Positions 1-25,723 of a DNA stretch of 48,343 nt are shown in pieces. The notes below the pieces were generated by a model. That model was given only the letters and a program-made list of their open reading frames with translations. It was not told where the DNA came from and did not search any database. A program made the position numbers and the translations under genes. The stretch comes from an uncultured Chromatiaceae bacterium (GTDB lineage: Bacteria; Pseudomonadota; Gammaproteobacteria; Tenderiales; Tenderiaceae), in contig CAMYNQ010000007.1 of the NCBI GenBank assembly GCA_947259785.1, positions 1 through 48,343 of the forward strand. The letters are read 5' to 3'. The stretch's first letter is position 1. The number at the start of each line of letters is the position of its first letter.

Positions 1-3000
1 ACAATTAATTGGAAGGCACGTGATAATCAATCGGATAATGTCACCCTTAATAACTTCCAGTATTCCGATGATGGTGGGGCCACATGGTACACGCCGAATA
101 ACGGTGATGCTTCCGCTGCTCTATCAGCCAACTGGGATGACAATGGTGGCGGTGGTTGGAGTAGTGCTTTCACCTTTGCTGCGGCTGCAGCACATAGCTT
201 TACCTTTAATACTCAACACGTTGATGTTGCTGCGGTGCAATCGCTCGACAATGTTGATCAATCAGATATTCAGATTCGCTTCAGCGTTAACGACGGCAGT
301 GTTGACTCAGATAACCCGGCGACCTCACAGCGCGTGCGTGTTGATAATCTTTCACCAAACAGCACCATTGTCTCCGGCACCTATAACTCTGACACTGATA
401 CGCTGGTTATAAGTGGCACCAACTTTACATCTATTGCGCCAGCGACTACCGACATTAAGAGTTATGTCGACTGGAGCAAGTTTGTCTGGGACGTTAACGC
501 GGATGACGCAGTTACGGCCAACATCAGCTTCGTGCTTGGCGGTGTCAGTAGTCTGACCATCACCAATGCCACTACCTTGACACTGGTGTTTAGCGGCGCC
601 AAGGCCGCTGCGATTGAAACCACCGCCGACTTCGGTACGGTCGGTGGCGCGGATACGCTGGATGTTGCCGCGGGCTTTAGTATCGATGCCTTTGGTAATG
701 CCGCCACCACGGATAGCGTGAGTGATGGGCCGTTGGCATTAACCAACACACCACCGGTTGGCGGTTTTACTGTGGATGACGTGATTCCGGCTGGCCAGAT
801 CAATCAGGCCAGCGATGGCAGTGGTGTAATAACTATCAACTGGAAGGCGCGCGATACCGAGTCAGACAACGTCACCATCAATACTTTCCAGTACTCTGAT
901 GACGGTGGCAGTACTTGGTATACGCCGAATAATGGCGATACTTCCGCTGCACTGTCGGCCAACTGGGATGACAATGGTGGCGGTGGTTGGAGTAGTGCTC
1001 CCACTTTTGCTGCGACGACTGGGCATAGTTTTACCTTTAACACCCAGCACGGCGACGTTACAGCGGTGCAATCGCTCGACAACGTCGATCAATCGGATAT
1101 TCAGATACGTTTCACAGTTAACGATGGCAGTGTTGACTCCGCTAATCCGGCAACTTCGGAGAACGTGCGGGTCGATAATCTCTCGCCCACCAATACGATA
1201 GTTTCAGGCGCCTATAACTCTGATATCGATACACTGGTCATAACAGGCATCAACTTCACCTCCATAGCGTCTGCAACAACAGATATTAAATCCTTTGTCG
1301 ACTGGAGCAAGTTTGTCTGGGACGTTAACGCTGATGATGCCGTTACGGCCAACATTAGTTTTGTCCTCGGTGACATAAGTAGTCTCACAGTCACCAATGC
1401 CACTACCTTGGCGCTGGTATTTACCGGTGCCAAGGCCGCCGCGATTGAAGCCACTGCCGGTTACGGTGCGGCAGGTGGCGCAGATGCATTAGATATCACA
1501 GCCGGTTTCAGTATCGATGCCTTTGGCAATGTCGCCACCACCGATGCTGTCAGCGATGCCTCGTTAGATCTTGCTGCGCCAGTCGGTGGTTACACCACCG
1601 ATGATGTGATACCGGCCAGTCAGATCAGCCAGGCCACGGATGGCAGTGGCATCATCACAATTAACTGGAAGGCGCGCGATAACCAGTCGGACGGTGTCAC
1701 GCTCAATAGCTTCCAGTACTCCGATGATGGCGGGGCCAGCTGGTACACACCCAATAACGGAGATGCTACCGCTGCACTGTCGGGCAACTGGGATGACAAT
1801 GGTGGCGCTGGATGGTCAACTGCCACTACCTTTGCTGCGGCGACTGCGCACAGTTTTAGCTTTAACAGCCAACACGCCGATGTCACCGCGGTGCAGTCGC
1901 TCGACAATACCGATCAATCGGATATCCAGATTCGCTTCATTGTTAATGATGGTAGTGCTGACTCTGCTAATCCAGCAAGCTCCGAAAGCGTGCAGGTCGA
2001 TAACCTCAATCCGAATGATACGATTGTCTCTGCTGCCTACGATGCCGGTATCGACGCCCTTGTTATTACCGGCACCAATTTCACTTCCATCGCACCTGCA
2101 ACAACAGATATTAAATCCTTTGTCGACTGGACTAAGTTTGCCTGGGACATCAACGGCGATGATGCGGCCACGGCCAATATCACCTTCGTGCTTGGCGATG
2201 TCAGCAGTCTGACTGTTACCAATACCACCACCTTGACCTTGGTGTTTAGCGGTGCCAAGGCCACGGTGATTGAAGCCAGCGCCGGCTACGGCGCTGCGGG
2301 TGGAGCTGACACACTCGATGTCACGGCCGGTTTTAGTATTGACGCGTTTGGCAATGCTGCTGTCAGCGACGTTTTAAGTAACGGCGCAATACTACTCAAT
2401 GGTGCCCCGTTGGCTGGTTACACGGTTGACGACGTGATCCCTGCTGGACAGGTCGCACAAGCCACCGATGGTAGTGGCACACTCACAATCAACTGGAAGG
2501 CGCGTGATATCGATTTGGATAATGTCAGCCTCAATACCTTTCAGTATTCGGATGATGGTGGGGCCACATGGTACACGCCTAATAACGGCGATACTTCCGC
2601 TGCACTGTCGGCCAACTGGGATGATAACGGCGGTGGCGGTTGGTCGACTGCCGCCACCTTTGCCGCCGCGACTGCGCACAGTTTTACCTTTAACACCCAA
2701 CACGCCGATGTTGCAGCGGCGCAGTCGCTCGGCAACGTCGATCAATCGGATATCCAGATTCGCTTCACCGTTAATGATGGCAGCGTTGATTCGGTCAATC
2801 CGGCGACCTCTGAAAGTGTGCGGGTCGATAACCTCGCCCCGAACGATACGATAGTATCGAGTGCCTATAACCCCATTAGCAACACGCTGGTGCTGACGGG
2901 CACTAATTTCACCTCTATCGCACCGGCATTGACGGATATTAAATCTTTCGTCGATTGGAGCAAGTTGGTCTGGGACATCAACGCTGACGATGCCGTCACG

Positions 3001-5712
3001 GCCAACATCACTTTTGTGCTCGGCGATGTCAGCAGTCTGACTGTTACTAATGCCACCACCTTGACCTTGGTGTTTAGCGGTGCCAAAGCCACGACGATTG
3101 AAGCCACCGCCGGCTACGGCGCTGCGGGTGGGGCTGACACGCTTGATGTTACGGCCGGTTTTAGCATTGATGCGTTTGGCAATGTCGCTGCCACCGACGG
3201 CGTAAGTGATGGCGCATTACAAATCAATAGCGCCCCAGTGGGGGGCTTCAGCGTGGATGATGTAATACCGGTCGGTCAGATTAACCAGGCCACGGATGGT
3301 AGTGGTGTGATCACCATTAACTGGAAAGCGCGCGACGATCAAAGTGATAACGTAGGCTTGCACAGCTTTCAGTATTCCGATGATGGCGGCACTACCTGGC
3401 ACACACCCAACAACGGTGATGTTTCTGGCGCACTGACGCCCAATTGGAATGATAATGGTGGCGGCGGCTGGTCAACCGCGACCACCTTCGGCGTGGCAAC
3501 TGTGCATAGTTTTAGCTTTAGCACTCAACACACTGATGTCACGGCGGTGCAATCACTCGATAACGTCGATCAATCGGATTTCCAGATTCGTTTTACTGTC
3601 AATGATGGCAGCATTGATTCTACCAACCCGGCAACCTCGGCGAGTGTGCGTGTCGATAACCTCGCGCCCGATGATACGATTGTTTCGGGTGTCTACAATG
3701 CTGATGCCGACACGCTGGTTATTTCCGGCACAAACTTCACCTCTATTGCCCCGGCCACTTCCGACATAAAAGGTGATGTCGATTGGAGCAAGTTGATCTG
3801 GGATATCAATGCTGATAATGCTGCCACGCCCAATATTAGTTTTGTCCTTGCTGAAGTCACCAGTCTAACCGTCACCAATGCCACCACCTTGACCCTGGTG
3901 GTTGCCGCTGCCAAGGCCACGGCAATAGAAGCCACCGCCGGCTACGGTGCGGCGGGGGGTGCCGACACCCTGGATGTCGCCGCAGGTTTCAGTATCGATG
4001 CGTTTGGCAATGTTGCCACTACGGACGGTGTGAGTGATGGGCCGTTGTCAATCAATAACACCCCACCTGTCGGCGGTTATAGCGTGGATGACATGATTCC
4101 AGCCGGTCAGATCAGCCAGTCCAGTGATGGCAGTGGTGTGATCACCATCAACTGGAAGGCATATGATAACGAGCTGGACAATGTTGCCCTGAATACCTTC
4201 CAGTACTCCGATGATGGCGGAGCAACTTGGTACACGCCCAATAACGGTGATTCTTCCGGCGGATTATCAACCAATTGGGATGATAACGGCGGTGGCGGCT
4301 GGAGCACTGCCGCGACATTCGGCGCGGCAACTGCGCACAGTTTTACGTTTAACACCCAACATGCCGATGTTGCGGCAGTGCAGTCTCTAGACAACGTTGA
4401 TCAATCTGGTATCCAGATTCGCTTTACGGTCAATGACGGCACGATCGATTCCACCAACCCGGTGACCTCTGCGAGTGTGCGGGTAGATAACCTCGACCCG
4501 AACGATACGATAGTATCGGGTGCCTATAACCCTACTAGCAACACGCTGGTGATTACTGGCACCAACTTCACTTCTATTGCTCCAGCCGCATCTGACATTA
4601 AGGCGTTTGTCGACTGGAGCAAGTTTGTCTGGGATATCAATGGTGATGATGCGACCACAGCTGATATCAACTTCGTCTTTGGTGATATCAGTAGTCTGGC
4701 TGTCACCAACGCCACTACTTTAACGTTGGTATTTACTGGCGCCAAGGCGGCGGCGATTGAATCCAGTGTTGGTTATGGTGCGGCTGGGGGTGCGGATGCC
4801 CTGGATATCAACGCTGGATTTAGTATTGATGCGTTTGGTAATGTCGCCACTATCGACGGCGTCAGCAATGCCCCGCTAAATCTTGCCGCACCGGTCGGCG
4901 GCTTCACTGTCGATAACGTAATTCCAGCCGCCCAGATCTTACAGGCCACTGATGGCAGCGGCATCATCACTATCAACTGGAAGGCACGCGACGATCAAAG
5001 TGATAACATAAGTTTGCATACCTTCCAGTATTCCGATGATGGCGGGGCCACATGGTACACACCCAATAACGGTGATACTTCTGGTGCACTGTCAGATAAC
5101 TGGGATGACAATGGAGGCAGCAGTTGGAGTAGTGCCACCACCTTTGCTGCTGCGACTGCCCACAGTTTCAGCTTTAACACCCAGCACGCCGACGTTACAG
5201 CAGTGCAGTCGCTCGATAATATTGATCAAAGCGATATCCAGATTCGCTTCACCGTTAACGATGGCAGTGTTGACTCGGTTAACCCGGCGACTTCCGCGAG
5301 TGTGAGTGTCGATAACCTTGATCCAAGCAATACGATCGTTTCAAGTATCTATAACGACGCCACTGATACATTGGTCATTACCGGTACAAATTTCACCTCC
5401 ATTGCCCCGGCTACGACCGATATCAAAAGTTATGTCGACTGGACCAAGTTGGTTTGGGATATCAACAGTGATGATGTGGTTAGCGCTGATATTACTTTTG
5501 CGGCTGGTGATGTTGCCAGTCTCACTGTCACGAATGACACAAGCTTAACCTTGGTCTTTACAGCTGCTAAAGGCACGGCAATCGAAACCAACGCTGACTT
5601 CGGTGCTGCGGGTGGTGCAGACTCGTTTGATATCACGGCCGGGTTTTCGGTAGATGCCGTTGGTAATGCATCCAGCAGCGACGGTGCGAATAATGGGTTA
5701 TTGATCGCCAAT
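1..5712 (+). repeat. Seven tandem coding repeats of about 276 codons
   Basis: The anchor motif TINWKARD recurs at 1, 832, 1657, 2485, 3313, 4144 and 4969, giving periods of 831, 825, 828, 828, 831 and 825 bases. Each unit carries a first half with QYSDDGGATWYTPNNGD and NWDDNGGGGW (fibronectin- or Ig-like) and a second half with TLVITGTNFTSI, DWSKFVWDIN and AGFSIDAFGNV (IPT/TIG-like). Units differ at many silent positions, so this is an old array rather than a very recent expansion. The first unit is cut by the window start, so the total copy number is unknown. Confidence 0.95.
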
Positions 5713-8700
5713 ACGTCCGTTTCAGGAACTGTTTATAGCGATGATAATGAAGTCACTCCACTCATCGGTGAAACTGTGCGCTTGTTAATCAATGGTGTCG
5801 ACAGCGGATTGACTGATACTACTGATGCAAGTGGGAGCTATAGAATTGAAACCACTCCCAGTCCGGGGGATCTGCTACTGGTTTATCTTGATAGTGGCGG
5901 CGGGAACCAAGGAACGGTGGTGACAATCTCTAATGGTCTAAGTTTTTCCGGTGCAAACACGTATCAGAATCACCTTGTCGTCCGGCACGACAACGCCGGA
6001 ATCATGAGCAATACAATTCTGAACAGCGCGACGAATGGCGATGCCGATATTCAGTATGCCGTAGTGCTCGATAATCTTACTGTTACCGGAGCACATGAAC
6101 TCTTTATTCCCAGTGGTCACAGTTTTATTCCTGGCGGTGATGTCATTACCCCAAGCATGGAAAGCTGGGGCAGCTTCGAAGGTGGCGCAAATGCGCTTGA
6201 TATCAACGGTGACCTAAGTGTTGCTGCTGGAAATTTCACTTCCACCAGCGCGATGATGACCATTCAGGGTAATTATGCCTTGAGCGGAGGTGCGTTCAAT
6301 CACAATAGCGGCACCGTGGTCTTCGATGGCGGAAATCAAACGTTGACGGGATCAACTACATTTAACAACCTTACTAAGACCGATTCGGTTGATGATGGCA
6401 GCGATGTCATACTGACATTTGATAGCAACGCAACACAGACTATTCTGGGTGCGTTGACGCTGGACGGTTTCGATGATGATGACCGAATCAATCTTGTCTC
6501 GAACAACCCTGCTAACCAGTGGCGTATCAATCTTGCTTCGACAGCAACCAAAGCCATCGATTTTGTAGACGTCGTGGACTCGGATGCATCAGGTTCCGAT
6601 GCTGCTCAGATCCCGATTAATCCTGCGGACTCCGTAAATAGTGGCAATAACGTACAGTGGTTCAGTGGCGCCGTCAGTTCGGTAATGGCTGAAGTCGATC
6701 GGGTCAGTATTCCGGTCAGTTCAGTCGCTTACGACTTTAACTACGATGTCTTGCCGACCATTAGTGCTGATGACACCGGTGTTAATTCGATTGCGATAAC
6801 AGCACCGGCCGGTTTTACTAATCTGGCGGTTAATACTATATACGTTGGTGGTAGCGAACAGGCGGAAAATTGTCCTACACCGGGCTCAGGTGAATATTGT
6901 GCCGCAATTTCCGGCCAGGTCATGACCATGACGCTTGGCAGCAAAGTCGCGGCGACAGGTACCAATGTCAGGATTCATTTCACGGCCGATGCACCGGATG
7001 CGGTTGGTAGTAGCGATTTCACCGCCATGGTGGATGATACCGATACCGTGCAGGCAAACGCCCAGACGGCAGCTGTTGGTGATGCCGATGGTGATGGTGG
7101 CGATGCAAATAGCCAGACGGTGAAGGTCATTGAATTTAATGGATTAAGTAATTCAACGTTTGTCGCTGAACCGCTTATCGTCACTGCAGATGGTGTTGCC
7201 ACCAGCACCCTGACAGCGACCTTGCTAGACAACAGCAGTATGGTAGTACCCGGAAAAAACGTCACATTTTCGTCAGGCCGAGGTGCCTTCGATGTTGTCA
7301 CGCCCCCCGCAGTCTTGTCTGATGTGAATGGTGTAGCCGCTGGCTCAATTAGCTCTACGACGCCTGGGGTAGTCACTATCACGGCCACTGATACTACAGA
7401 TGGGATGACGTTGAGCGAACAAGCGAAAGTTTATTTTACCCGTGGTTTGGTTTTGGACCTGACGAAAACGGCTAACAAAGAAGAAGTGGTTGTGGGTGAC
7501 GTTATCACGTATCAAATCGAGATCAAGAACACCACGAATAACGATGTCGATCTTGTCACGCTTGAAGACAGCATTCCGTCTAACTTTAAATACATCAAGG
7601 GCAGCGCGCGAATCGATGGTGTGCCGTTACCGGACCCCAGTGGCAAGCGGCCGCTGTTGTTTGATATCGGCACAGTGCCCGCCCTGGGTGATACGAATGG
7701 AAACGGTGAGGCTGATCCGCAAGAGCAAGGATACCTGTTGCTGAGTTATCAGTTAGTTGTCGGTGCAGGTGCAACGCCGGGAGAATATTATGTCAATACG
7801 GCGTATGCCAGGGATGTCTGTGACGTCTGTGTAATATCGAATACAGTCAGCGAGAGCGTCGAGGTGGTGCTGGATCCATTCTTCGATCTAGGCACTATTA
7901 TCGGTAAAGTATTTGACGACAAAAATGAGGATGGCTGGCAGGACCATGGCGAAGCAGGTATTGCCGGTGCCATGGTGGTACTTGATGATGGTACCTATAT
8001 ACTCACCGATAGCCATGGCCGCTATCATTTCCCGGCGGTAAGGCCGGGGCAGAGATTGCTCAAGATTAATGGCCAGAGCCTGCCGTCCGGAACACGATTT
8101 ACCACACCTATTACGCAAGTTGTATCGGTTACACCCGGTCTGCTGGTCAAGGCCAATTTCGGCGCGCGACATTCGGTCGAATTAAAAAAAATCGGACACG
8201 AGGGTGAGTCGAGCGTCAATGTTGAGCGTAAAGAGCTTAATGAATCGACCGTCGATGTCTATGGCAGCGTCGCCATGCAAAATTTATTCGTCAATGGCAC
8301 GGAGATTCTTGTGTCCAAGGCTGATGTAAATATGTATACGAGCAGCACTGGACAAGATATTTTATACTTTAGTGACGGATTACCGAATGACGTCATTGGC
8401 TTCAACATGACAACAAATCGAAGCCCGAGCGCAATAAAGAACTGGCAATTGAAAATATTGACACCCGAGGGTGAAGTTCTGCGAAGTTTTAAAGCAGACG
8501 GCAGCTTGCCACCGGCCATCGCGTGGGACGGGCGTACTCAAGATAACAAACCTGTAGAAAGCGGCAGGGTGTATGACTATCAACTTGCTGTTGAGTTCTG
8601 GGATGGGAACCGTGCCGCCAGTCCACGTCGTTTATTCCATGTGAATGAGCAATCTGAATTGTATCTGGACATGAGTTTGACTGGCGATGTTTTTGAGCCA

Positions 8701-11700
8701 GGTGGTGTCACTCTGTCAACGACTGCGAAAGATTCTCTGAAAAATGTTGCCAATGCATTACGAAAGTATCCCGACGGTAAAATATTTATCAATGGCCATA
8801 CCGACACAATCGGCAGCAGCGAAAGCAACCTGGCTTTATCCAAGGCTCGCGCTGAAGCTGCGACCAGGTATCTTGTCGATATTGAAAATATTCCAAGGCC
8901 GCGTTTAGAGGTGCGTGGTTTTGGTGAAACACAACCCGTCGCAGGCAATGCTACCCCTGAGCAACGCGGCCTTAACCGACGTATTGAAATTTACGGTGAC
9001 ATCAGCAAGCGGGCGCTGGCCAAATCTTATCGACGCTTTAATACAGAACCAATATTGAGTATTAACGGTGAAAAGATTGAGGCCTTGAATTATTACACTT
9101 TTCGAGAGACCAGGGTTCTGTCCGAGGCAGAGAATCTTGCTATTGTGATGAAAGGCCGCTTCGGTCGTTCATCACTGACTCACCTCTATGCACCTAAACT
9201 GCAATTGCCAAACCAGGGCGAAGGTGAAAATTACCGTATTGTTTTTCCACCCAAAGGGGATCAAAACTCTGGCGTTGCCGTTAGCGAATATTATTTCGAA
9301 GGCACGACAGTGCGGGGTAGTGTTATCGAATTTGATGGCGAAAACGTACGGGTTGCAGAAGACGGTTCTTTCCGGCACAGAATCAGGCTCAAGGCTGGAA
9401 AATCGACCCATAACCTAATCGTGACTGCGGCATCTGGCTATACGCGGTTTTCATCATTTGAGCTGACTGCTGTAGATCATGACGAAGCTGGCCGACCCTT
9501 GTATCTGGTCGATCCGGTCCCATTCCTTGAGCTCGATGTGCCTCAAGAGAGTGCTCGTGTGAACAGAAAACTCTATACTGTTTCAGGTAAGACAAATCCA
9601 AAAAATGCAATTTTTGTGGGCGATGTAGAGATAGATGTCGAGGCAGACGGGAGTTTTTCTCATGCAGTGAGTCTTGATGGCGGCCACAACCTGATTTCAG
9701 TACGGGCTGTTAATCCTGAAGGGTTTGAAGGCAGCGTAGAGCACGGTGTTGAAGCTGGAAATACTGACCTTTTCTTCATGGCGTTTGCCAATGGCAAAGT
9801 TGGGCAACTTAAAGGAAAAGGTTACCTTGAAGGTGCTGGCATGCAGGAGGACAAGAAATACTATAACGAAGGGCGAGTGGCGTATTACCTCAAGGGTCGA
9901 GTAAAAGGCAAATACCTGATCACCTCAGCCTTTGATAGCGGCACCCAGGAAGTCAACAAGCTGTTTGATGGATTGGACGAAAAGGATAATTCAAAACTGT
10001 TCACCAATCTCGATCCGGATAAACTCTATCCCGTATACGGTGACTCAAGTACGTTGGTCAACGATATCGAAAGCCAGGGCAAATTTTATCTCGCAGTTGA
10101 GAGCGACGAATTCAATGCCGTAGTTGGTAATTATGCTGTTGATTTCAATGACACCGAGCTGGCCAGTTATCAACGCACACTCTACGGTGCCCGCGCCAGT
10201 TATCAATCGCTTGCCAGCACAATGAGCGGACGGGCCGATAACAAGGTGATCGTGTTTGGCGCACAAGTGGAACAAGGACCAATACACGATGAACTACATG
10301 CCACTGGCGGCTCGCTCTATTATCTCAGTCATAGCGACATTATTGAGGGTAGCGAACAAGTCACCGTTGTGGTCAGAGACAAGGATACTGGTCTGACGCT
10401 GAGCCGGACTATTTTGCAACGCGATATCGATTACCGTATCTATTATGATCAAGGACGTTTGATAAGCACCGACCCTATCTCCGGTGTTGTTGAAGACAAG
10501 TCGTTGTTTGACAGTTCAATCCTGTCGGGCAATCCGGTATCCCTTGAAGTGAATTATGAAGCGGAACTAAATAGTTTTGAGAAAAAAGTCTTAGGTGCTC
10601 GCGTTAGCAAGACGCTGAGCAAAAAAATTGCCGTTGGCGCTACCCAGATTAATGATGAGCTGAGCAACGGTGAGTATGAGCTTTCGGCTATCGACGCAGA
10701 AATGCGTATCGGCCGGGCTGTACGATTATTGGCTGAGATGGCGGAAAGCCGTGGTATCAACAGCCAGACCTATCTCAGTTTGGACGGTGGCCTGAGCTTC
10801 AATAATGTTACGCCGGTTGGTGAGCTCAACGGCAATGCCTGGAAGGCAGCCATGGAGCTGGACGTAGGTGAACTGTTTGGTGATCCGGGCAGGATGTTTG
10901 TTGACGCCTACCTCAAACGGCTCAGTAATGGTTTTCTCTCCATGGGTAACTCCCCCGAACCAGGCACGCGCAAGGCCGGGGTCAACATGCTTTATTCCCT
11001 CAGTAGTCAGAGTAAGCTGATGGCTAGTTACACCACCGAAGAAAGCGATGCGGATATAAGTAATCCGGCAGCGATTTCTCAAACCGAAAGTCTATCATTA
11101 CAATGGCGTTACGATGCCGACCGTTGGGGGGTGACCACTGAATATTATGGACGTGACAGCAAAGATGCCAGTGGCAATGAACTGGAGAGTAATCAATATG
11201 CAACGGCTCAAGCGCGTTATCAGCTTACTGAAAAAGTGAGCACTCATCTTGAACGTCAACAGACCATTAATGGCACCGAGAACGATCAGACGACTTTGGG
11301 TGCTGGCTATCATGCCACTAAGACCATCAAAATTGCTGGTGCCGTGGCGCAAGGGTCACAGGGCAAGGCCGCCAAGGCGGGTATCCAGTGGTTGTTTGGT
11401 GGCGGCAAGCTTTATCTGGATGAACGTTTGACGCAGAATACTATTGGTCAGTCCAGCCTAAGTACCGTTGTCGGTGGTGAAAGCCAGTTGGGTAGCAATA
11501 CCAGGGTTTACAACGAATATCAGATTGAAAATGCCGATGCTGGTGATAAGCAGGTTTCATTATTAGGTGCCGACCGTTTCTGGCAGCTGCAAAAAGGTTT
11601 ACTGTTTACGCTAGCAGGAGAACATAGCATTATCAATGGCCATCTCAGCGACAAAGAACGTTACACCCTCTCCACTAGCCTAAGCTATAAAGGCCAGTCA

Positions 11701-12378
11701 GGTCTGAGTTGGTCAACTAAAAATGAATTTCGTCGTGACCGAGGCGATCAAGAGTTGCTGCAATACCTTAGCAACTTCCTGATTGAACAAAAACTCAATC
11801 CCGATTACAGCCTGTTGTTCAAATACCAGTTAAGCCAAACCAAGAATAAGGAACTGGATACCATTGAAGCTGACCTCAATGAACACAGCCTCGGCCTGGC
11901 GTATCGCCCGGTGGCAAGTGACCGTTTAAACCTGCTGGCGCGTTATACCGGTATCTCTGATAAACGACCACTGAATTTGGGCCAATTTGAGAGCCAGGAA
12001 ACTCAGACCGATATCTTCTCTATCGAGTGGTCATATGACCTGACGCGTAGACTCGAGTGGGTCGACAAGTTGGCCATAAAAAGGAAAACTGCACAGAGCG
12101 GTGGCCATGCGCCTTTTACCAGCCACACCGGCCTGTCAATTCATCGCCTCAATTATCAAGTTGGCGAAGCCTGGGATGTGGGCGCGGAATACCGCATCTT
12201 GGCACAACGCGAAGCCGACAACCGCCGCAAAGGTTGGCTCACAGAGGTAATGTGGCGTGCCAACAAACACACTCGCTTAGGCGTTGGCTACAACTTCACT
12301 AATTTTTCCGATAACGAATACAGCGATAATAATTACTCCGTCAAAGGTGCATTTGTTAGATTGCAAGGTATGTACTAA
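1..12378 (+). CDS. Giant repeat-rich surface protein with OmpA-like domain and C-terminal barrel (5' partial)
   Basis: The frame is open from the first base, so the N-terminus and signal peptide lie upstream; 4125 residues are visible. Seven units of about 276 residues fill 1-5712. Then come a carboxypeptidase-regulatory-like fold (about 5719-5940, VSGTVYSDD), a beta-rich stretch to 6670, a Big_1-like Ig domain (7138-7437), a DUF11-type domain (7450-7870, LDLTKTANKEEVVVGD) and an SdrD-B-like domain (7885-8070, GKVFDDKNEDGWQD). An OmpA-C domain follows (8659-9003; NGHTDTIGSSESNLALSKAR has the Asp and Arg used to bind peptidoglycan diaminopimelate). From about 9760 a region of about 870 residues with alternating strands ends in an aromatic residue (LQGMY), typical of outer-membrane barrels. 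Acidic loops DADGDGGDAN, DTNGNGEADPQE and DKNEDGWQDHGE look calcium-binding. Role as adhesin or surface scaffold is inferred. The stop codon abuts the next start. Confidence 0.9.
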   Translation, partial: TINWKARDNQSDNVTLNNFQYSDDGGATWYTPNNGDASAALSANWDDNGGGGWSSAFTFAAAAAHSFTFNTQHVDVAAVQSLDNVDQSDIQIRFSVNDGSVDSDNPATSQRVRVDNLSPNSTIVSGTYNSDTDTLVISGTNFTSIAPATTDIKSYVDWSKFVWDVNADDAVTANISFVLGGVSSLTITNATTLTLVFSGAKAAAIETTADFGTVGGADTLDVAAGFSIDAFGNAATTDSVSDGPLALTNTPPVGGFTVDDVIPAGQINQASDGSGVITINWKARDTESDNVTINTFQYSDDGGSTWYTPNNGDTSAALSANWDDNGGGGWSSAPTFAATTGHSFTFNTQHGDVTAVQSLDNVDQSDIQIRFTVNDGSVDSANPATSENVRVDNLSPTNTIVSGAYNSDIDTLVITGINFTSIASATTDIKSFVDWSKFVWDVNADDAVTANISFVLGDISSLTVTNATTLALVFTGAKAAAIEATAGYGAAGGADALDITAGFSIDAFGNVATTDAVSDASLDLAAPVGGYTTDDVIPASQISQATDGSGIITINWKARDNQSDGVTLNSFQYSDDGGASWYTPNNGDATAALSGNWDDNGGAGWSTATTFAAATAHSFSFNSQHADVTAVQSLDNTDQSDIQIRFIVNDGSADSANPASSESVQVDNLNPNDTIVSAAYDAGIDALVITGTNFTSIAPATTDIKSFVDWTKFAWDINGDDAATANITFVLGDVSSLTVTNTTTLTLVFSGAKATVIEASAGYGAAGGADTLDVTAGFSIDAFGNAAVSDVLSNGAILLNGAPLAGYTVDDVIPAGQVAQATDGSGTLTINWKARDIDLDNVSLNTFQYSDDGGATWYTPNNGDTSAALSANWDDNGGGGWSTAATFAAATAHSFTFNTQHADVAAAQSLGNVDQSDIQIRFTVNDGSVDSVNPATSESVRVDNLAPNDTIVSSAYNPISNTLVLTGTNFTSIAPALTDIKSFVDWSKLVWDINADDAVTANITFVLGDVSSLTVTNATTLTLVFSGAKATTIEATAGYGAAGGADTLDVTAGFSIDAFGNVAATDGVSDGALQINSAPVGGFSVDDVIPVGQINQATDGSGVITINWKARDDQSDNVGLHSFQYSDDGGTTWHTPNNGDVSGALTPNWNDNGGGGWSTATTFGVATVHSFSFSTQHTDVTAVQSLDNVDQSDFQIRFTVNDGSIDSTNPATSASVRVDNLAPDDTIVSGVYNADADTLVISGTNFTSIAPATSDIKGDVDWSKLIWDINADNAATPNISFVLAEVTSLTVTNATTLTLVVAAAKATAIEATAGYGAAGGADTLDVAAGFSIDAFGNVATTDGVSDGPLSINNTPPVGGYSVDDMIPAGQISQSSDGSGVITINWKAYDNELDNVALNTFQYSDDGGATWYTPNNGDSSGGLSTNWDDNGGGGWSTAATFGAATAHSFTFNTQHADVAAVQSLDNVDQSGIQIRFTVNDGTIDSTNPVTSASVRVDNLDPNDTIVSGAYNPTSNTLVITGTNFTSIAPAASDIKAFVDWSKFVWDINGDDATTADINFVFGDISSLAVTNATTLTLVFTGAKAAAIESSVGYGAAGGADALDINAGFSIDAFGNVATIDGVSNAPLNLAAPVGGFTVDNVIPAAQILQATDGSGIITINWKARDDQSDNISLHTFQYSDDGGATWYTPNNGDTSGALSDNWDDNGGSSWSSATTFAAATAHSFSFNTQHADVTAVQSLDNIDQSDIQIRFTVNDGSVDSVNPATSASVSVDNLDPSNTIVSSIYNDATDTLVITGTNFTSIAPATTDIKSYVDWTKLVWDINSDDVVSADITFAAGDVASLTVTNDTSLTLVFTAAKGTAIETNADFGAAGGADSFDITAGFSVDAVGNASSSDGANNGLLIANTSVSGTVYSDDNEVTPLIGETVRLLINGVDSGLTDTTDASGSYRIETTPSPGDLLLVYLDSGGGNQGTVVTISNGLSFSGANTYQNHLVVRHDNAGIMSNTILNSATNGDADIQYAVVLDNLTVTGAHELFIPSGHSFIPGGDVITPSMESWGSFEGGANALDINGDLSVAAGNFTSTSAMMTIQGNYALSGGAFNHNSGTVVFDGGNQTLTGSTTFNNLTKTDSVDDGSDVILTFDSNATQTILGALTLDGFDDDDRINLVSNNPANQWRINLASTATKAIDFVDVVDSDASGSDAAQIPINPADSVNSGNNVQWFSGAVSSVMAEVDRVSIPVSSVAYDFNYDVLPTISADDTGVNSIAITAPAGFTNLAVNTIYVGGSEQAENCPTPGSGEYCAAISGQVMTMTLGSKVAATGTNVRIHFTADAPDAVGSSDFTAMVDDTDTVQANAQTAAVGDADGDGGDANSQTVKVIEFNGLSNSTFVAEPLIVTADGVATSTLTATLLDNSSMVVPGKNVTFSSGRGAFDVVTPPAVLSDVNGVAAGSISSTTPGVVTITATDTTDGMTLSEQAKVYFTRGLVLDLTKTANKEEVVVGDVITYQIEIKNTTNNDVDLVTLEDSIPSNFKYIKGSARIDGVPLPDPSGKRPLLFDIGTVPALGDTNGNGEADPQEQGYLLLSYQLVVGAGATPGEYYVNTAYARDVCDVCVISNTVSESVEVVLDPFFDLGTIIGKVFDDKNEDGWQDHGEAGIAGAMVVLDDGTYILTDSHGRYHFPAVRPGQRLLKINGQSLPSGTRFTTPITQVVSVTPGLLVKANFGARHSVELKKIGHEGESSVNVERKELNESTVDVYGSVAMQNLFVNGTEILVSKADVNMYTSSTGQDILYFSDGLPNDVIGFNMTTNRSPSAIKNWQLKILTPEGEVLRSFKADGSLPPAIAWDGRTQDNKPVESGRVYDYQLAVEFWDGNRAASPRRLFHVNEQSELYLDMSLTGDVFEPGGVTLSTTAKDSLKNVANALRKYPDGKIFINGHTDTIGSSESNLALSKARAEAATRYLVDIENIPRPRLEVRGFGETQPVAGNATPEQRGLNRRIEIYGDISKRALAKSYRRFNTEPILSINGEKIEALNYYTFRETRVLSEAENLAIVMKGRFGRSSLTHLYAPKLQLPNQGEGENYRIVFPPKGDQNSGVAVSEYYFEGTTVRGSVIEFDGENVRVAEDGSFRHRIRLKAGKSTHNLIVTAASGYTRFSSFELTAVDHDEAGRPLYLVDPVPFLELDVPQESARVNRKLYTVSGKTNPKNAIFVGDVEIDVEADGSFSHAVSLDGGHNLISVRAVNPEGFEGSVEHGVEAGNTDLFFMAFANGKVGQLKGKGYLEGAGMQEDKKYYNEGRVAYYLKGRVKGKYLITSAFDSGTQEVNKLFDGLDEKDNSKLFTNLDPDKLYPVYGDSSTLVNDIESQGKFYLAVESDEFNAVVGNYAVDFNDTELASYQRTLYGARASYQSLASTMSGRADNKVIVFGAQVEQGPIHDELHATGGSLYYLSHSDIIEGSEQVTVVVRDKDTGLTLSRTILQRDIDYRIYYDQGRLISTDPISGVVEDKSLFDSSILSGNPVSLEVNYEAELNSFEKKVLGARVSKTLSKKIAVGATQINDELSNGEYELSAIDAEMRIGRAVRLLAEMAESRGINSQTYLSLDGGLSFNNVTPVGELNGNAWKAAMELDVGELFGDPGRMFVDAYLKRLSNGFLSMGNSPEPGTRKAGVNMLYSLSSQSKLMASYTTEESDADISNPAAISQTESLSLQWRYDADRWGVTTEYYGRDSKDASGNELESNQYATAQARYQLTEKVSTHLERQQTINGTENDQTTLGAGYHATKTIKIAGAVAQGSQGKAAKAGIQWLFGGGKLYLDERLTQNTIGQSSLSTVVGGESQLGSNTRVYNEYQIENADAGDKQVSLLGADRFWQLQKGLLFTLAGEHSIINGHLSDKERYTLSTSLSYKGQSGLSWSTKNEFRRDRGDQELLQYLSNFLIEQKLNPDYSLLFKYQLSQTKNKELDTIEADLNEHSLGLAYRPVASDRLNLLARYTGISDKRPLNLGQFESQETQTDIFSIEWSYDLTRRLEWVDKLAIKRKTAQSGGHAPFTSHTGLSIHRLNYQVGEAWDVGAEYRILAQREADNRRKGWLTEVMWRANKHTRLGVGYNFTNFSDNEYSDNNYSVKGAFVRLQGMY

Positions 12379-13728
12379 ATGAACAAAGAAAGACCAACAG
12401 ATAATAATGTAACCAGCGTAGCCAACCCGTTTAAGCCACAGGGTCGTTTCAGGGCACTGATGACCACGCTGATTCAGTGGTCAGTAACAGTCGTTATGGT
12501 GCTGGCCTTTTTCCTGTTTTTGATATGGGGTGCGAGTTATATATTGCCCGAAGGGACAAGCCTGATAAACCTTGACGGTGCTGACAAAGCAGGTGAGCGA
12601 GCAGGGGACCCTGTTGGTGATATCGAGTTATCCCCATCCGATGTTGCGCCTGGTGAGCAGGTCGCTGCCACCCTTAGCGAAGTGCACAAGACAGTCAAAC
12701 ATAAATCAGCGAAAACTATTTCATGGGTTGATGCGCTTAAGGGCTTGCAGCTTTTCGATCAGGATGCGGTCAAGACGGCCAGTGATTCTCATGCAGTGGT
12801 CAATTTTGATGATGCCAATAAATTGCGACTGGGACCGGATTCATTGGTGATTGTCAGGCGTCAGGCAGAGGATTCCGGGTTGCAGGTAAGGCGGCCTGCC
12901 TTGGTGATCATGGAGGGTGAGCTGCGCGGAATCATGATCGCCAGCGAGACTAAGAAGTCGACTAATGTAGAAGTGATTATTCCCGGCGGCGTTGCCCGAA
13001 TCAACAGGACTAAGGGGTCGGATGAAAAGGTTGACTACCAGATCAAGGTCAATCCGGATGAGTCGACGTCAGTGGTCGTATACCGGGGTAATGCCGAAGT
13101 TGAAGCACAGAATAAAAAAGTGGTGCTGGGCACCAATCAAATCACGGTTGTTGTCAAAGGTGCAGCCCCCACAAAGCCCACGATTCTGCCGGATAATGTC
13201 AATAATCTCAGCCCCGCCGATGAGACAGTAACTTTTTATCGTGATTTTCCCCAGGAGATCACCTTTGGCTGGGCAAAAACGAAAGAAGGGCAATACCGAT
13301 TGGTTATCGCCCGCGATGCTTCGTATGAGAACGTTGTGCTTGATGAAGTCATCACAACAAACAAATTTATTCACGGCGATTTACATCATGGAACTTATTT
13401 CTGGCGTGTTGCAAGTGTTACTCGCGACGGAAATGAAGGGGAATTCAGTAAGACTCACTGGATAGAGGTGATTCAAGATTTGGATCCGCCTCGTTTGCGG
13501 GTGAATTATCCAGAAAAAATCATGGCGAGTGCACGTTACATACTAAATGGCAGTGTCGAACCTGGCGCCACACTGACTATTAATGGCATGAAAGTCGATT
13601 CAGATGAGAAGGGCAGATTCAAGGTAGAGGTGATGCTCAAAAAGGGAATGAATGTGGTAGTGGCGCAAGCGGTGGATAGAGCTGGCAATGCAACTTTCGT
13701 GTCTGAACGTGTATTCAGAGACTTCTAA
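12379..13728 (+). CDS. Membrane-anchored FecR-like protein with C-terminal Ig-like domains
   Basis: This 449-residue protein has a short cytoplasmic tail, one membrane segment at about residues 33-55 (VVMVLAFFLFLIWGASYIL) and no lipobox. A FecR-type domain follows at about 110-230 (NFDDANKLRLGPDSLVIVRR, then GELRGIMIAS), a fibronectin-III-like domain at about 275-365 (GTYFWRVASVTRDGNEGEF) and a bacterial Ig-like domain at 375-447 (GSVEPGATLTINGMKVD). Such FecR proteins without a neighbouring ECF sigma factor often sit beside large surface proteins. The ATG follows the TAA of the giant gene with no gap, and AAGG near 12364 is the only visible ribosome site, so translation is probably coupled. 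A periplasmic partner or assembly factor for the giant protein is plausible but inferred. Confidence 0.85.
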   Translation: MNKERPTDNNVTSVANPFKPQGRFRALMTTLIQWSVTVVMVLAFFLFLIWGASYILPEGTSLINLDGADKAGERAGDPVGDIELSPSDVAPGEQVAATLSEVHKTVKHKSAKTISWVDALKGLQLFDQDAVKTASDSHAVVNFDDANKLRLGPDSLVIVRRQAEDSGLQVRRPALVIMEGELRGIMIASETKKSTNVEVIIPGGVARINRTKGSDEKVDYQIKVNPDESTSVVVYRGNAEVEAQNKKVVLGTNQITVVVKGAAPTKPTILPDNVNNLSPADETVTFYRDFPQEITFGWAKTKEGQYRLVIARDASYENVVLDEVITTNKFIHGDLHHGTYFWRVASVTRDGNEGEFSKTHWIEVIQDLDPPRLRVNYPEKIMASARYILNGSVEPGATLTINGMKVDSDEKGRFKVEVMLKKGMNVVVAQAVDRAGNATFVSERVFRDF

Positions 13729-13744
13729 ATAGGCTGAATCATCA

Positions 13745-15580
13745 GTGGCAATTCGAGTTTCAATGCGTTTTAAGATTTTAATGGGCTTACTGGTATTGGT
13801 GACCACTGTCGTCGCCATTATCACTATTGCAATGACGAACCTGTTTCATAATGACAAACATATTTATTTGCATGATCTTACTGGTGCCGCAGCAGTTCAA
13901 ACTGCAGATGAGATTAAGGCACGTCTAACCGAATATCAGCAGAAGGCTCAGGTCTTTGCGCGCTTCTTGTACAACAGCGATTTGACCAGGAAACAAAATA
14001 ATAAGCTAATTTCACAGTTGTTCGGAGACTATCCCGAGTTTGTCGCGATTACTGTTGATGCCCCGAAGCGTGGTTCCGTGACCGCATATGATGCTAACCA
14101 AATAAATGAGCTTGGCATAAAACGTAAACAATTCGAACAGTACCGGAAACAGCACCCTCTGCCGCTGGATGCAATTCGTGCGGGGGAGAAATATCTCGAA
14201 AATTCGACCATATCAAGCATACTGCCGACGATGACGATGGCAACGACTGCGAGCATCGGGGGGAGTAGGAAAGCGGTTGTGGTCAGTGCCGTTATCCGTT
14301 TGGATGATCTGATGGGAATTGTCCGCCGATCAAGAATCTTTGATACCTATTTGATTGATAACCATGGTGAGATACTTGTTAGTTCAGGGGGGGGGTATAA
14401 AGAACAAGATAAGGCGGTTGACTGGATTCCCGATTTGGCGTCACTTCAATATGAGCAGAGCGCTGGCATCAGTAAGGAATACAAATTTCATGGCAAAGAT
14501 ATGGTCGGTGGTTTTTCGAGGGTGGATTACGGCAACCTGGTGACCGCGACGCAGATTCCAATGTCAGCGGCCTATCTTAGTGCACGTGAGCTGCTTCAAG
14601 ATCTCTTTATCATCGCATTAGTATTGTTAGTCTCAGCGGCAATTCTTGGTCTGATCTGGTCGAATCGCCTGATGCAACCGATCAAACATTTGTCGGAAGC
14701 AACCGAGGTACTTGGGAAGGGACGCTACGATATTCATGTCAAAGTGTCGTCGCGGGATGAAATAGGTGGTCTTGCCAACTCATTTAATCTCATGGTGGAT
14801 GAACTTCAGGCCCGTGAGCATGATCTGATCGACGCTAATGATCAGCTTGTGCAGGCAGCAAAAATGGCCGCATTTGGTGAGCTTGGTGCAGGAATTGCCC
14901 ATGAAGTAAAGAACCCACTTGCGGGTATTCTTGGATTATCTCAGCTGTCGATGCGTGCTGTTAAGCCAGGTGATCGAGTGTACGATTATTTGACCCGTAT
15001 TGAGATTGAAACTAAGCGCTGCAAAGAGATCATTGATAATTTAATGAGATTCGCCCGCCAGGAAAAAGTTGAATTCGTTAAAGTTGATGTTAATGACGTA
15101 ATTATAAGTGCAATCACTATTGTTGATCACCAACTAACGATTAATGGTGTGAAAATCGAACGCGACTTGGCCGGTGGTCTGCCAAAAATAATGGGCAATG
15201 GCAACCAGATACAACAAATAGTCATGAACTTTATGATCAATGCCCAACAAGCCATGGTAGATAAGTCGGGTAAGGTGACGGTGTCGAGTAGCCTGGTGGA
15301 GAACAATCAGATCGAGGTTCGTGTCAGTGATAATGGGCCGGGAATAGCCGAAGAAATTCAGGAGAAAATTTTTCAACCGTTTTTTACCACCAAGGAGGCA
15401 GGCAAGGGTACTGGGCTCGGTTTGTCTGTGACCTATGGCCTTATAAAGGAACATTTGGGAACAGTCTCAGTTGATAGTCAGCTTGGCGAAGGCACGACAT
15501 TTATTGTTCGCTTTCCTGTGGAGGATGGTTCGTTGAGCAGCCGGGGTATTGGTGAAAACAGCAATGCGAATTTTAAATGA
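13745..15580 (+). CDS. Sensor histidine kinase with extracytoplasmic sensor, HAMP, HisKA and HATPase domains
   Basis: The 611-residue reading begins at GTG; an ATG six codons later (13763) is equally possible and neither has a strong ribosome site. An N-terminal membrane segment (ILMGLLVLVTTVVAIITIA) is followed by an extracytoplasmic region of about 240 residues, probably Cache-like, then a second segment (DLFIIALVLLVSAAILGLIW), a HAMP domain and the kinase core. The H-box is GAGIAHEVKNPLAGILGL with the phospho-accepting His at codon 14900-14902. The ATP-binding domain shows the N-box (IVMNFMINAQQAM), G1 (VSDNGPGIAEE), F-box (FQPFFTT) and G2 (GKGTGLGLSV). All catalytic motifs are intact. It begins 16 bases after the FecR-like gene and precedes two response regulators, its likely targets. 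Confidence 0.93.
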   Translation: MAIRVSMRFKILMGLLVLVTTVVAIITIAMTNLFHNDKHIYLHDLTGAAAVQTADEIKARLTEYQQKAQVFARFLYNSDLTRKQNNKLISQLFGDYPEFVAITVDAPKRGSVTAYDANQINELGIKRKQFEQYRKQHPLPLDAIRAGEKYLENSTISSILPTMTMATTASIGGSRKAVVVSAVIRLDDLMGIVRRSRIFDTYLIDNHGEILVSSGGGYKEQDKAVDWIPDLASLQYEQSAGISKEYKFHGKDMVGGFSRVDYGNLVTATQIPMSAAYLSARELLQDLFIIALVLLVSAAILGLIWSNRLMQPIKHLSEATEVLGKGRYDIHVKVSSRDEIGGLANSFNLMVDELQAREHDLIDANDQLVQAAKMAAFGELGAGIAHEVKNPLAGILGLSQLSMRAVKPGDRVYDYLTRIEIETKRCKEIIDNLMRFARQEKVEFVKVDVNDVIISAITIVDHQLTINGVKIERDLAGGLPKIMGNGNQIQQIVMNFMINAQQAMVDKSGKVTVSSSLVENNQIEVRVSDNGPGIAEEIQEKIFQPFFTTKEAGKGTGLGLSVTYGLIKEHLGTVSVDSQLGEGTTFIVRFPVEDGSLSSRGIGENSNANFK

Positions 15581-15654
15581 CAGGCTGTATATTGGATAAT
15601 ATTTTCCATGCTAAACTTACATAAATGCTAAAGCGCCAGGGATATTAATCAAAC

Positions 15655-16623
15655 TTGCTAAATGATCAATTAGATATTCTGGTTGTCGATGATGAGGAAT
15701 CTATTCGTATAGTCGTCTCGCAGGTACTCATAGATGATGGGCATCGCGTTACCACTGCTGAATCCGGTGAGCAAGCGTTAGACTTGATCTCAAAACGACC
15801 GTTCAATTTAGTCGTTACCGACATTCGCATGAGTGGCATGAGCGGCATCGACCTTCTAAAGAAAATAAGAAGCATAAATTCAAGTGCAGAAGTGGTCATC
15901 ATAACCAGTTATGGGTCGATGGACTCTGCTATACAAGCTATGCGCGATGGTGCCTACGACTATTTGGCCAAGCCATTTGAGTCCCTTCATGCGATCTCAT
16001 CAGTCGCTGCTCGTGTTAAGGATAAGATTCGACTTAGCCAAGAGAATAATGAACTGAATGAAAAGGTTCGTACATATAATTCTCAGTTGAAGCGTGCCAA
16101 TCAAGAACTCAAAGAGTTGACTACCATTGATAGTCTGACAAACCTATTCAACAAGCTTTATTTTCACAAATATTTAGAGTCAGAGTTTATACGCTCGCGA
16201 CGTTATGAACATGCCGTGTCACTCTTCATGGTTGATGTAGATAACATGAAGCAATATAACAATAAGTACGGTCGATTGCGTGGTGATGATCTGCTGTGTT
16301 TTTTGGCCGAATTATTGAGATCTGGCATCAGAGACACTGACGTAGCTTGCCGCTACGGTGGTGAGAAATTTGCGATAATCATGCCGGAAACCAGAAAAGA
16401 TGACGCTATTGTATTGGCTGAAAAGATTCGGAAATCGGTAGAAGATTACCCATTTGTGGGGCAGGAAACTCAGCCGGACGGTACCGTCACAGTCAGTATC
16501 GGTGTTGCTGGTTTTCCTTGTGACTGCGAGGAAGATTTAGAAATTGTTCAGCTTGCTGAAGAGGCGCTCCTTGAGGCTAAACGCAGTGGGCGCAATAAGG
16601 TCGCAGCGGCGAGTTTGAAATGA
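15655..16623 (+). CDS. Response regulator with degenerate GGDEF domain
   Basis: TTG at 15655 is the only reasonable start, because an in-frame TAA lies three codons upstream; an AGGGA at 15638-15642 may be the ribosome site. Residues 1-120 form a receiver domain with acidic pair D12/D13, phospho-acceptor D56 (VVTDIRM), T84 and K106 (AKPF). A coiled linker at about 125-155 leads to a GGDEF domain whose signature reads GGEKF (235-239): Lys replaces the metal-binding Glu of GG(D/E)EF, and the upstream DxDxFKxxND element reads VDVDNMKQYNN. The inhibitory I-site RxxD (R226-D229) is kept. It is therefore more likely a cyclic-di-GMP receptor or partner than an active cyclase. It lies 74 bases after the kinase gene. 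Confidence 0.9.
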   Translation: MLNDQLDILVVDDEESIRIVVSQVLIDDGHRVTTAESGEQALDLISKRPFNLVVTDIRMSGMSGIDLLKKIRSINSSAEVVIITSYGSMDSAIQAMRDGAYDYLAKPFESLHAISSVAARVKDKIRLSQENNELNEKVRTYNSQLKRANQELKELTTIDSLTNLFNKLYFHKYLESEFIRSRRYEHAVSLFMVDVDNMKQYNNKYGRLRGDDLLCFLAELLRSGIRDTDVACRYGGEKFAIIMPETRKDDAIVLAEKIRKSVEDYPFVGQETQPDGTVTVSIGVAGFPCDCEEDLEIVQLAEEALLEAKRSGRNKVAAASLK

Positions 16624-17576
16624 AACAAGGTAGCGAAATCTTAGTCGTTGATGACGAGGTAAATATATGCTTCGTTCTCGATCAATTATTGACTGACGAG
16701 ACGCATACTGTAACGACTGCCTCAAATGGTGAGGATGCATTCGAATTGTACCGAGAGCATAACTATCCACTGTTGATCGTCGATATCCGCCTACCGGGAA
16801 TGAGTGGGCTTGAGTTAATGGCAAAAATTAGAGAGATCAATCCTGACACTCAGGTTGTGGTGATGACGAGCCACGCACAGTTTGATTATGCGGCCGAAGC
16901 CTTACGCTCCGGGGCATACGAATTTCTGTTGAAACCCTTCGATAACCTGGAGCTTGTTACCGCGACAATTACTCGGGCAACAGAGAAGATCGAAATTATC
17001 GAGGGCAATAAAGCGCTGATTGAAAAACTAAAGCATGAAAAGTCTGATCTGGAAAATATTAATAATCTCTTGATGGATCTTTCGATGCGAGATGTACTAA
17101 CTGGTCTGTTTAATCGGCGTTATATTAATGAGTATCTTAAAGCGGAACTGGCCCGCGCCAACCGTCATGAGAAAATCTTTTCAGTGTTATTTTTAGATAT
17201 CGATAAATTTAAGCTCTATAACGATAAATACGGTCATGTTCAAGGCGATACACTGCTCCGTGAGTTTTCTCTTGTTCTAAAAGCTTGCATGCGTGAATCG
17301 GACCTAGCGGCACGTTACGGCGGTGAGGAATTTTTGTTGGTACTGCCGGAAACTCCTAAGGCTGGTGCCGATGAGCTGGCAGAACTAATTCGTCACCAAG
17401 TTGAGCAGCATAAATCTTCCGGCCTCGATGTTACGACTACGGTGAGCATCGGGGTCGCCAGCTATCCGGACGATGGAATTGATCCCTTGGACATAATAAA
17501 GGCGGCAGATGGGGCTATGTACGAGGTCAAGTCTGCCGGTGGCAATAAGGTGGCTGTGGCTAGTGCGACCAAATGA
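16620..17576 (+). CDS. Response regulator diguanylate cyclase (receiver-GGDEF)
   Basis: The ATG overlaps the previous stop codon (ATGA), implying translational coupling. The 318-residue protein has a receiver domain with D11/D12, phospho-acceptor D55 (IVDIRLPG), T83 and K105 (LKPF), a coiled-coil linker at about 120-150 and a GGDEF domain. The catalytic signature is canonical: FLDIDKFKLYNDKYG with metal-binding D193, GGEEF at 234-238 and an I-site RESD at 225-228. It is a PleD/WspR-like enzyme expected to make cyclic-di-GMP from two GTP when phosphorylated, with product inhibition. Its partner with the degenerate domain is encoded immediately upstream, and the histidine kinase before that is the likely phosphate source. 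Confidence 0.93.
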   Translation: MKQGSEILVVDDEVNICFVLDQLLTDETHTVTTASNGEDAFELYREHNYPLLIVDIRLPGMSGLELMAKIREINPDTQVVVMTSHAQFDYAAEALRSGAYEFLLKPFDNLELVTATITRATEKIEIIEGNKALIEKLKHEKSDLENINNLLMDLSMRDVLTGLFNRRYINEYLKAELARANRHEKIFSVLFLDIDKFKLYNDKYGHVQGDTLLREFSLVLKACMRESDLAARYGGEEFLLVLPETPKAGADELAELIRHQVEQHKSSGLDVTTTVSIGVASYPDDGIDPLDIIKAADGAMYEVKSAGGNKVAVASATK

Positions 17577-19548: not shown

Positions 19549-20106
19549 ATGAGTAACGAATCCCATGTTAATGACGACCAGCTGGAGTGTGCTAATCAGG
19601 AACGTAAAGATTTGCCTATAGTCGACAAATTAACAAGGCTTTATAACCGACGTTATTTCCAGAAATACCTTAATACGGAACTATCTCGGTCGCATCGTTA
19701 TTATCATCCGTTTTCGCTTTGTTTTATAGAAGTGGATTACATGAAACAGTACAACGATACCAATGGTCGCATGGAAGGTGACGAACTACTGCGTTTTCTG
19801 GCTGATTTGCTGAAAACCAATACTCGAGCCTCTGACTTGACTTGTCGTTATGGTGAAGAAGGATTTGTTCTGGCATTACCGGAAACCTCCAAGAAAGGAG
19901 CTAGTACGGTGGCTGAGAAGATGCGAAAAACGGTAGAGGTCTACCCGTTCGAGGGGCGGGACTCGCAACCCAATGATTCCGTCACAGTAAGTATTGGTGT
20001 TGTCAGCTACCCAGATGATGCATTGGAGTGTGACGAACTTATTGAAACCGGTAATAAGGCGGTCTGCGAAGCAAAACGTAGCGGCGGTAACAAAGTATGG
20101 AAATAA
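19549..20106 (+). CDS. Stand-alone degenerate GGDEF protein
   Basis: The 185-residue cytoplasmic protein is a bare GGDEF domain with about 25 residues before it and no receiver. The signature is GEEGF at 102-106 instead of GG(D/E)EF, and the first metal-binding Asp is Glu61 (FIEVDYMKQYND), so cyclase activity is unlikely. The I-site RASD (93-96) is retained. It shares unusual segments with the GGDEF domain of the 15655 protein (MKQYN, LPET, a YPF.G..SQP-type stretch, TVSIGV, EAKRSG), which marks it as a paralogue of that degenerate copy rather than of the canonical cyclase. A cyclic-di-GMP receptor role is inferred. It lies 17 bases upstream of the MORN lipoprotein start. Confidence 0.85.
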   Translation: MSNESHVNDDQLECANQERKDLPIVDKLTRLYNRRYFQKYLNTELSRSHRYYHPFSLCFIEVDYMKQYNDTNGRMEGDELLRFLADLLKTNTRASDLTCRYGEEGFVLALPETSKKGASTVAEKMRKTVEVYPFEGRDSQPNDSVTVSIGVVSYPDDALECDELIETGNKAVCEAKRSGGNKVWK

Positions 20107-20123
20107 GAAGAGGGTGGATTTCA

Positions 20124-23853: not shown

Positions 23854-23884
23854 ACACAGTGTAGCAGTGCAACAATAGACGTTT

Positions 23885-25630: not shown

Positions 25631-25723
25631 ATTCGCTCGGATTTAAAACTGAACCCAAAGCAACAGGACGTCCTTCATACCACCCCTCCGTTCTATTGAA
25701 GATTTACATATACGGTTACATTG

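Follow-up and report, generated by a model that had tools for sequence, protein, structure and literature searches.

Five genes on the plus strand at positions 1-17576 of the window (the whole stretch of 48,343 nucleotides that was analysed, from an uncultured Chromatiaceae bacterium) encode a giant outer-membrane protein, a FecR-domain protein, a sensor histidine kinase and two REC-GGDEF response regulators, and since the block is found again in unrelated bacteria from the environment they very probably form one pathway that reports the state of the envelope or of the cell surface. In the order that we favour, with a probability of roughly 0.55, they make up a trans-envelope signalling unit that would run from the giant through the FecR protein and the kinase to the REC-GGDEF regulators and cyclic-di-GMP. 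The proposal builds on conservation, on an obligate pairing of the FecR protein and the kinase, on the linkage of this pair to REC-GGDEF genes and to the giant, and on the state of the catalytic motifs. Only a small number of systems are known in which signalling across the envelope ties a defined outer-membrane protein to cyclic-di-GMP, and here a compact set of genes for an outer-membrane giant, a FecR partner, a kinase and a cyclase recurs in several phyla.

Base 1 of contig C7, which is part of a draft genome of 3.36 Mb, is also the first base of the window. Re-checking of the ORF list gave five ORFs on one strand with gaps of 0, 16, 74, and -4 bases, exactly as the original prediction had claimed, and Pfam searches bore out the domain content that it had given for the five genes (the giant, FecR with Glucodextran_B, dCache-HAMP-HisKA-HATPase, and two REC-GGDEF proteins). 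Its statement that there is no DNA-binding regulator among the five genes is correct for these five alone, for a LysR gene (17704-18591, plus strand) lies 127 bases 3' of the block. At the equivalent locus of the sister species the gaps are -1, 10, 73, and -4 bases, and the abutting or overlapping contacts ("0" and "-4") recur there. The closest relative with a named record is "uncultured Chromatiaceae" FO_M_Gamma_048.3, with a kinase identity of 76-77%. The scans for promoters and terminators gave results at chance level, which say nothing about transcription. Downstream of the module the window also carries the transposases IS110, Mutator, and DDE (22822-26764 and 36126-37067) and a protein of 523 aa whose kinase domains are of the APH-like and AAA_33/zeta-toxin-like types (37249-38820).

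The giant (1-12378, plus strand) is an exported protein of 4125 aa with an open 5' end; its ORF begins at contig base 1, so its N-terminus was cut off by the assembly. Seven repeats of about 276 aa, the first starting at residue 1 of the truncated ORF, are followed by a middle part with Invasin_D3, DUF11, and SdrD_B domains, an OmpA-like domain (8692-8979, plus strand, aa 2898-2993, E 2.8e-22) with the peptidoglycan-binding motif GHTD...LSKARA, an Ig-like Glucodextran_B domain and a C-terminal beta-barrel region of about 865 aa (9781-12375, plus strand) that belongs to the type I barrel family. The intact giant N-termini that were inspected resemble Sec signal peptides, as judged by eye. The cassette of OmpA, Ig and barrel is constant in length in eight giants, with the OmpA motif 1192-1207 aa before the C-terminus, and the repeats ahead of it vary among giants, with units of 276, 113, 159, 129, and 116 aa. 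A structure model of the barrel built from five sequences shows about 30 meander strands at low confidence (pLDDT 53), and the PDB structures nearest to it, among them SlpA, LptD, and BtuB, are outer-membrane barrels; the model supports only the designation "outer-membrane barrel", with no finer assignment. A search by sequence for a solved relative of the barrel found none, and a DNA scan of the 3' end of the giant gave the same outcome as the protein profile. Reading the barrel as an autotransporter was rejected on the lack of a Pfam autotransporter match at the C-terminus, and reading it as a TonB-dependent receptor was likewise rejected for want of Pfam domain support. The own genome holds a second giant on the 5.4-kb contig C174 (L096, 206-5464), with a barrel 73% identical to that in the window. 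The surface placement of the repeats is putative, since the OmpA-like domain sits between them and the barrel. This position leaves room for a giant that acts as a periplasmic scaffold, in which the repeats and everything else N-terminal to the barrel share the periplasm with the OmpA domain: if that domain is bound to peptidoglycan, it is not evident that the polypeptide ahead of it lies outside. However, a stretch of over 2800 aa made up of Ig-like domains and of repeats that vary between species would be unusual in a periplasmic protein, and we regard such a scaffold as unlikely.

The FecR-domain protein (12379-13728, plus strand) consists of an N-terminal membrane helix followed by FecR, fibronectin-like, and Glucodextran_B (Ig) domains. 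The original prediction had called it a periplasmic FecR/Ig protein, and these domains are confirmed; the structure model, with an N-terminal helix at about residues 23-55, amends this to a protein that is predicted to be anchored in the inner membrane and to lie in the periplasm. A fold search returned generic Ig/fibronectin tandems as matches. The sensor histidine kinase (13745-15580, plus strand) has a dCache periplasmic domain, HAMP, HisKA, and HATPase domains, and it is intact as predicted, with the catalytic motifs HEVKNP, INAQQA, NGPGI, and GTGLGL all present. The best-conserved stretches of its sensor are the two membrane-proximal edges, residues 21-50 and 265-285, and these could be a docking site for a membrane-anchored partner. 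The trees of the FecR protein and the kinase contain the same well-supported clades, and the distances in the two families correlate with an r of 0.88, to which common species history contributes.

The two genes are also inseparable in other genomes. Among 56 relatives, the six full-length relatives of the kinase (two of them in the own genome) occur at the same loci as the six full-length relatives of the FecR protein. A class-wide sample of 369 Gammaproteobacteria was searched with the FecR protein (query A1, E below 1e-100) and with the kinase sensor region (query A4); each query gave 11 loci in the identical 10 of 369 genomes, and the FecR gene always lay directly 5' of the kinase gene. 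A scan of named genomes added two loci in Nitrospirota and one in Eisenbacteria. The full tally is 16 module loci, with FecR beside a sensor histidine kinase at all 16; recurrence of the block at so many loci is more than chance. In a phylum-wide sample of 249 genomes the kinase sensor was found in the own genome only, and a search of plasmids for the kinase gave no match at E up to 1e-60. REC-GGDEF genes lie 3' of the kinase wherever the contig continues readably. None follows in G215, where the contig ends, and at the Eisenbacteria locus (L085) a 172-aa ORF with no Pfam match overlaps the end of the kinase gene shortly before the contig end. Also in Eisenbacteria (L085:719-10005), the start of the giant shares 4 bases with the gene for a REC-GAF-kinase-REC hybrid protein.

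The module is often accompanied by the giant. An orthologous barrel group (above 1200 bits) can be separated from distant barrels (557 bits or less), and orthologous barrels occur in eight of the 369 genomes, with G021 counted on a C-terminal fragment that lies at the edge of a contig. The five genes had been proposed to form one system, and that they are one conserved unit is supported: seven of the eight genomes with an orthologous barrel also carry the module (hypergeometric 5e-12, a value that ignores kinship between genomes), and an orthologous giant lies near 10 of the 16 module loci. We also looked at whether the kinase and the regulators occur without the surface gene in most relatives, and from the same 10 of 16 loci they do not. 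The orthologous giant lies 5' of fecR in the window, the sister species, G009, G021, G081, G111, both Nitrospirota loci, and the Eisenbacteria locus. In one genus the block from FecR to the giant lies between surA and pdxA: in G091 (L087/L137) the order on one strand is lptD-surA-fecR-HK-RR-RR-RR(degenerate)-ORF203-giant-pdxA-rsmA, and in G318 both of these junctions are found on separate contigs (L089/L138), where the flanking genes were named by position and length. The usual gammaproteobacterial order is lptD-surA-pdxA-rsmA, and thus the block looks like a single unit placed between surA and pdxA. The insertion site between surA and pdxA belongs to an operon for the assembly of outer-membrane proteins and lipopolysaccharide. 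Among genomes with the module, G062 and G215 gave no barrel match and G309 gave only one of the distant type. G210 has an orthologous barrel without the module. Since the giant is absent from some module genomes, it is not an obligatory partner. These absences, together with distant barrels that occur without the module and beside another large protein, would suit a fortuitous neighbourhood in which a surface gene lies by chance upstream of an unrelated two-component system. Against this stand the recurrence across families and phyla, the overlapping or abutting genes retained in the sister species, the class-wide co-occurrence, and the surA-pdxA block of G091 and G318, and on the strength of the last two we have rejected a chance association as very improbable. 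Use of the barrel family to mark the module in general was also rejected, since most of the distant barrels (about 360-557 bits) come after a large protein encoded separately, and those examined had no module gene as a neighbour. At L129-L132 and L136 the "middle" region of the giant belongs to a large protein of its own, which such distant barrels (about 1240-1720 aa) follow; this amounts to a two-protein version of the surface system without the signalling genes.

The proposed mechanism can be followed from the outside inward, and in it we infer all physical interactions, the direction of signalling and the activity of the second regulator. The C-terminal barrel of the giant would anchor it in the outer membrane, and its OmpA domain would clamp it to peptidoglycan. 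With one helix in the inner membrane, the FecR protein would span the periplasm via its FecR and Ig domains and serve as the dedicated partner of the dCache histidine kinase, most likely passing on to it the condition of the giant or that of the layer formed by outer membrane and peptidoglycan. The kinase would then phosphorylate the REC domains of the REC-GGDEF regulators, and phosphorylated regulator 2 would produce cyclic-di-GMP. We favour the order from giant to FecR to kinase to REC-GGDEF because FecR is inseparable from the kinase, the trees agree, the distances correlate, the giant and the FecR protein have the Ig-like Glucodextran_B region in common, and the edges of the sensor are conserved. 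Points that count against it are the module genomes in which the giant is lacking, the paralogous loci that adjoin a different large repeat protein, the orthologous barrel of G210 that comes without the module, and the sister locus with no canonical cyclase. Gene linkage fits both sensing of the giant and control of the giant, and the main rival would make the giant an adhesin controlled by the pathway. Through dCache the FecR protein and the kinase would then sense a small ligand or another envelope cue, and the production or display of the giant would be under the control of cyclic-di-GMP, or simply of cotranscription. The repeat-rich and fast-changing N-termini suit an adhesin-like cargo, the kinase owns a dCache sensor, and some module loci have no orthologous giant. 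Nevertheless, the FecR protein is obligate with the kinase and has its Ig domain in common with the giant, the periplasmic-type OmpA domain of the giant is near the compartment of FecR, and the five genes encode no DNA-binding output. The giant as an output of the pathway is therefore a serious alternative, to which we give about one chance in three.

The favoured order, from the giant to cyclic-di-GMP, ends in two regulators that are 43% identical to each other and differ in their catalytic sites. Regulator 1 (15655-16623, plus strand) has an intact REC domain and a degenerate GGDEF domain, with GGEKF and NNKYGR in place of the GGEEF and ND.YGH of active cyclases; its I-site is kept as RDTD shortly before GGEKF (RDTDVACRYGGEKF). 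Regulator 2 (16620-17576, plus strand) has an intact REC domain, a canonical GG(D/E)EF motif and metal-site residues (FLDIDKFKLYNDKYGHVQGD / RYGGEEF), and an RxxD site, and it is predicted to be a phosphorylation-dependent diguanylate cyclase. The residues expected of a two-component pair are in place, both the catalytic residues of HisKA/HATPase and the phospho-Asp, Thr, and Lys of REC. The best NCBIfam relative of both regulators is PleD, with a score below the cut-off. The original prediction that both GGDEF regulators make cyclic-di-GMP lacks support in that form: regulator 1 is degenerate, so only regulator 2, with its canonical motifs, resembles a diguanylate cyclase. In the sister species both are degenerate, with HSGDEF in regulator 1 and, in regulator 2, an N in place of the metal-site D, a K in place of N, and the motif GSEEF; without a canonical cyclase at this equivalent locus, synthesis of cyclic-di-GMP is not conserved in the lineage. 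The receiver protein PopA of Caulobacter has a degenerate GGDEF domain in which the A-site is lost and the I-site is intact (PMC5052742). Regulator 1 has the same combination of a degenerate A-site and an intact RxxD, which makes it a putative cyclic-di-GMP binder, and with its catalytic site degenerate and its I-site kept its role may be that of a receptor for cyclic-di-GMP, of a dimer partner, or of a phosphate sink. Effectors of cyclic-di-GMP exist in the genome, as 14 PilZ matches show.

Degenerate GGDEF copies are found around the module as well. A stand-alone GGDEF ORF (19549-20106, plus strand) that is 49% identical to regulator 1 reads YGEEGF and keeps RxxD; it occupies the same position in the sister species, where it reads YGKDEF and is also degenerate, and it is probably a satellite of the module. 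A MORN-repeat protein (window 20097-21161) overlaps this ORF by 10 bases and may be coupled to it. Degenerate third regulators are present in G091, G318, L081, and L084, and every degenerate copy in these, in the window, and in the sister species retains RxxD. At each locus that bears regulators at least one is canonical, with the exception of the sister locus. All genes are under purifying selection, which is looser on GGDEF domains (dN/dS 0.23-0.30) than on REC domains (0.12-0.15), values that are rough owing to high dS. Together, the motif changes in regulator 1, in both sister regulators and in the stand-alone ORF, the RxxD-keeping third regulators and the higher GGDEF ratios would fit a cyclic-di-GMP branch that is being lost in this lineage, with GGDEF domains now serving as PopA-like receptors or kinase sinks and a locus that mainly listens to cyclic-di-GMP or to phosphorylation. 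On the other hand, regulator 2 of the window has all canonical motifs, dN/dS is still well under 1, and some degenerate GGDEF sites are active, such as AGDEF in VCA0965 (PMC3974145), though there the change is at the first residue. Loss of the branch is thus a possible but less than even prospect. Within this one locus the eroding GGDEF domains form a natural gradation, with a predicted active cyclase at one end and a putative receptor at the other.

The five-gene system that we favour as a trans-envelope signalling unit resembles the logic of YfiBNR or of FecA-FecR and belongs to neither. The FecA-FecR-FecI system combines a barrel in the outer membrane with a FecR-domain protein anchored in the inner membrane and an effector in the cytoplasm. 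The same three kinds of component are present here, but a kinase replaces the sigma factor, and Pfam searches found no TonB-dependent receptor or ECF sigma factor domains in the five proteins. It is conceivable, if rather doubtful, that the giant barrel reports contact, tension or its own assembly via FecR to a kinase that sets cyclic-di-GMP, which would be a hitherto undescribed kind of trans-envelope system that follows FecA-FecR logic but puts a kinase where the sigma factor would be. HisKA kinases work with REC-GGDEF regulators in PleC/PleD and Hk1/Rrp1, and the kinase here likewise stands beside REC-GGDEF regulators; to our knowledge those systems have no FecR partner and no outer-membrane giant. 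In YfiBNR of Pseudomonas aeruginosa, an OmpA/Pal-like outer-membrane protein and a periplasmic go-between act on inner-membrane control of cyclic-di-GMP synthesis (PMC3375315, PMC4887326). The three-compartment logic is alike, and a peptidoglycan-binding OmpA partner is present in both, but the window encodes a soluble REC-GGDEF cyclase behind a histidine kinase, a membrane-anchored FecR protein as the go-between instead of YfiR, and a giant barrel protein instead of a small lipoprotein in the outer membrane. Pfam found neither a YfiR-family protein nor a membrane PAS-HAMP-GGDEF protein (YfiN) among the five proteins, and the periplasmic partner matches FecR and Glucodextran_B only.

Reports also exist on FecR-domain proteins with other membrane sensors. 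The BiofilmReg operon of Burkholderia contains a response regulator, a LysM/FecR protein, and a CHASE2 histidine kinase, with a DNA-binding regulator of the OmpR type (PMC5192318). As in the window, the gene for a periplasmic protein with a FecR domain lies immediately 5' of that for the sensor kinase, and the operon includes a response regulator, whereas the sensor here is dCache, the output is GGDEF and LysM is lacking; Pfam found no LysM, CHASE2, or OmpR-type regulator in P0002-P0005. A cluster of CHASE2 adenylate cyclase, FecR, and TPR proteins has been described in Campylobacterota (PMC9239204). There too a FecR-domain protein goes with a second-messenger pathway behind a membrane sensor, but the messenger is cAMP, the sensor is CHASE2, and the cluster is without a histidine kinase or a giant barrel. 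The system in the window suggests a general role of FecR-domain proteins as periplasmic partners of membrane sensors beyond iron/sigma-factor signalling. Full-text searches of openly accessible literature found no published description of the combination of giant, FecR, kinase, and REC-GGDEF. The paralogous module loci on contig C36 of the own genome and contig C55 of the sister species adjoin another large repeat protein, which gave no match to Pfam and has one region in common with the giant. On C36 (L035:3132-9374) a BiofilmReg-like cluster with an OmpR-type regulator, a LysM-FecR protein, a CHASE2 histidine kinase, and a TPR protein lies convergent to and immediately beside this second copy of the FecR-kinase-GGDEF module.
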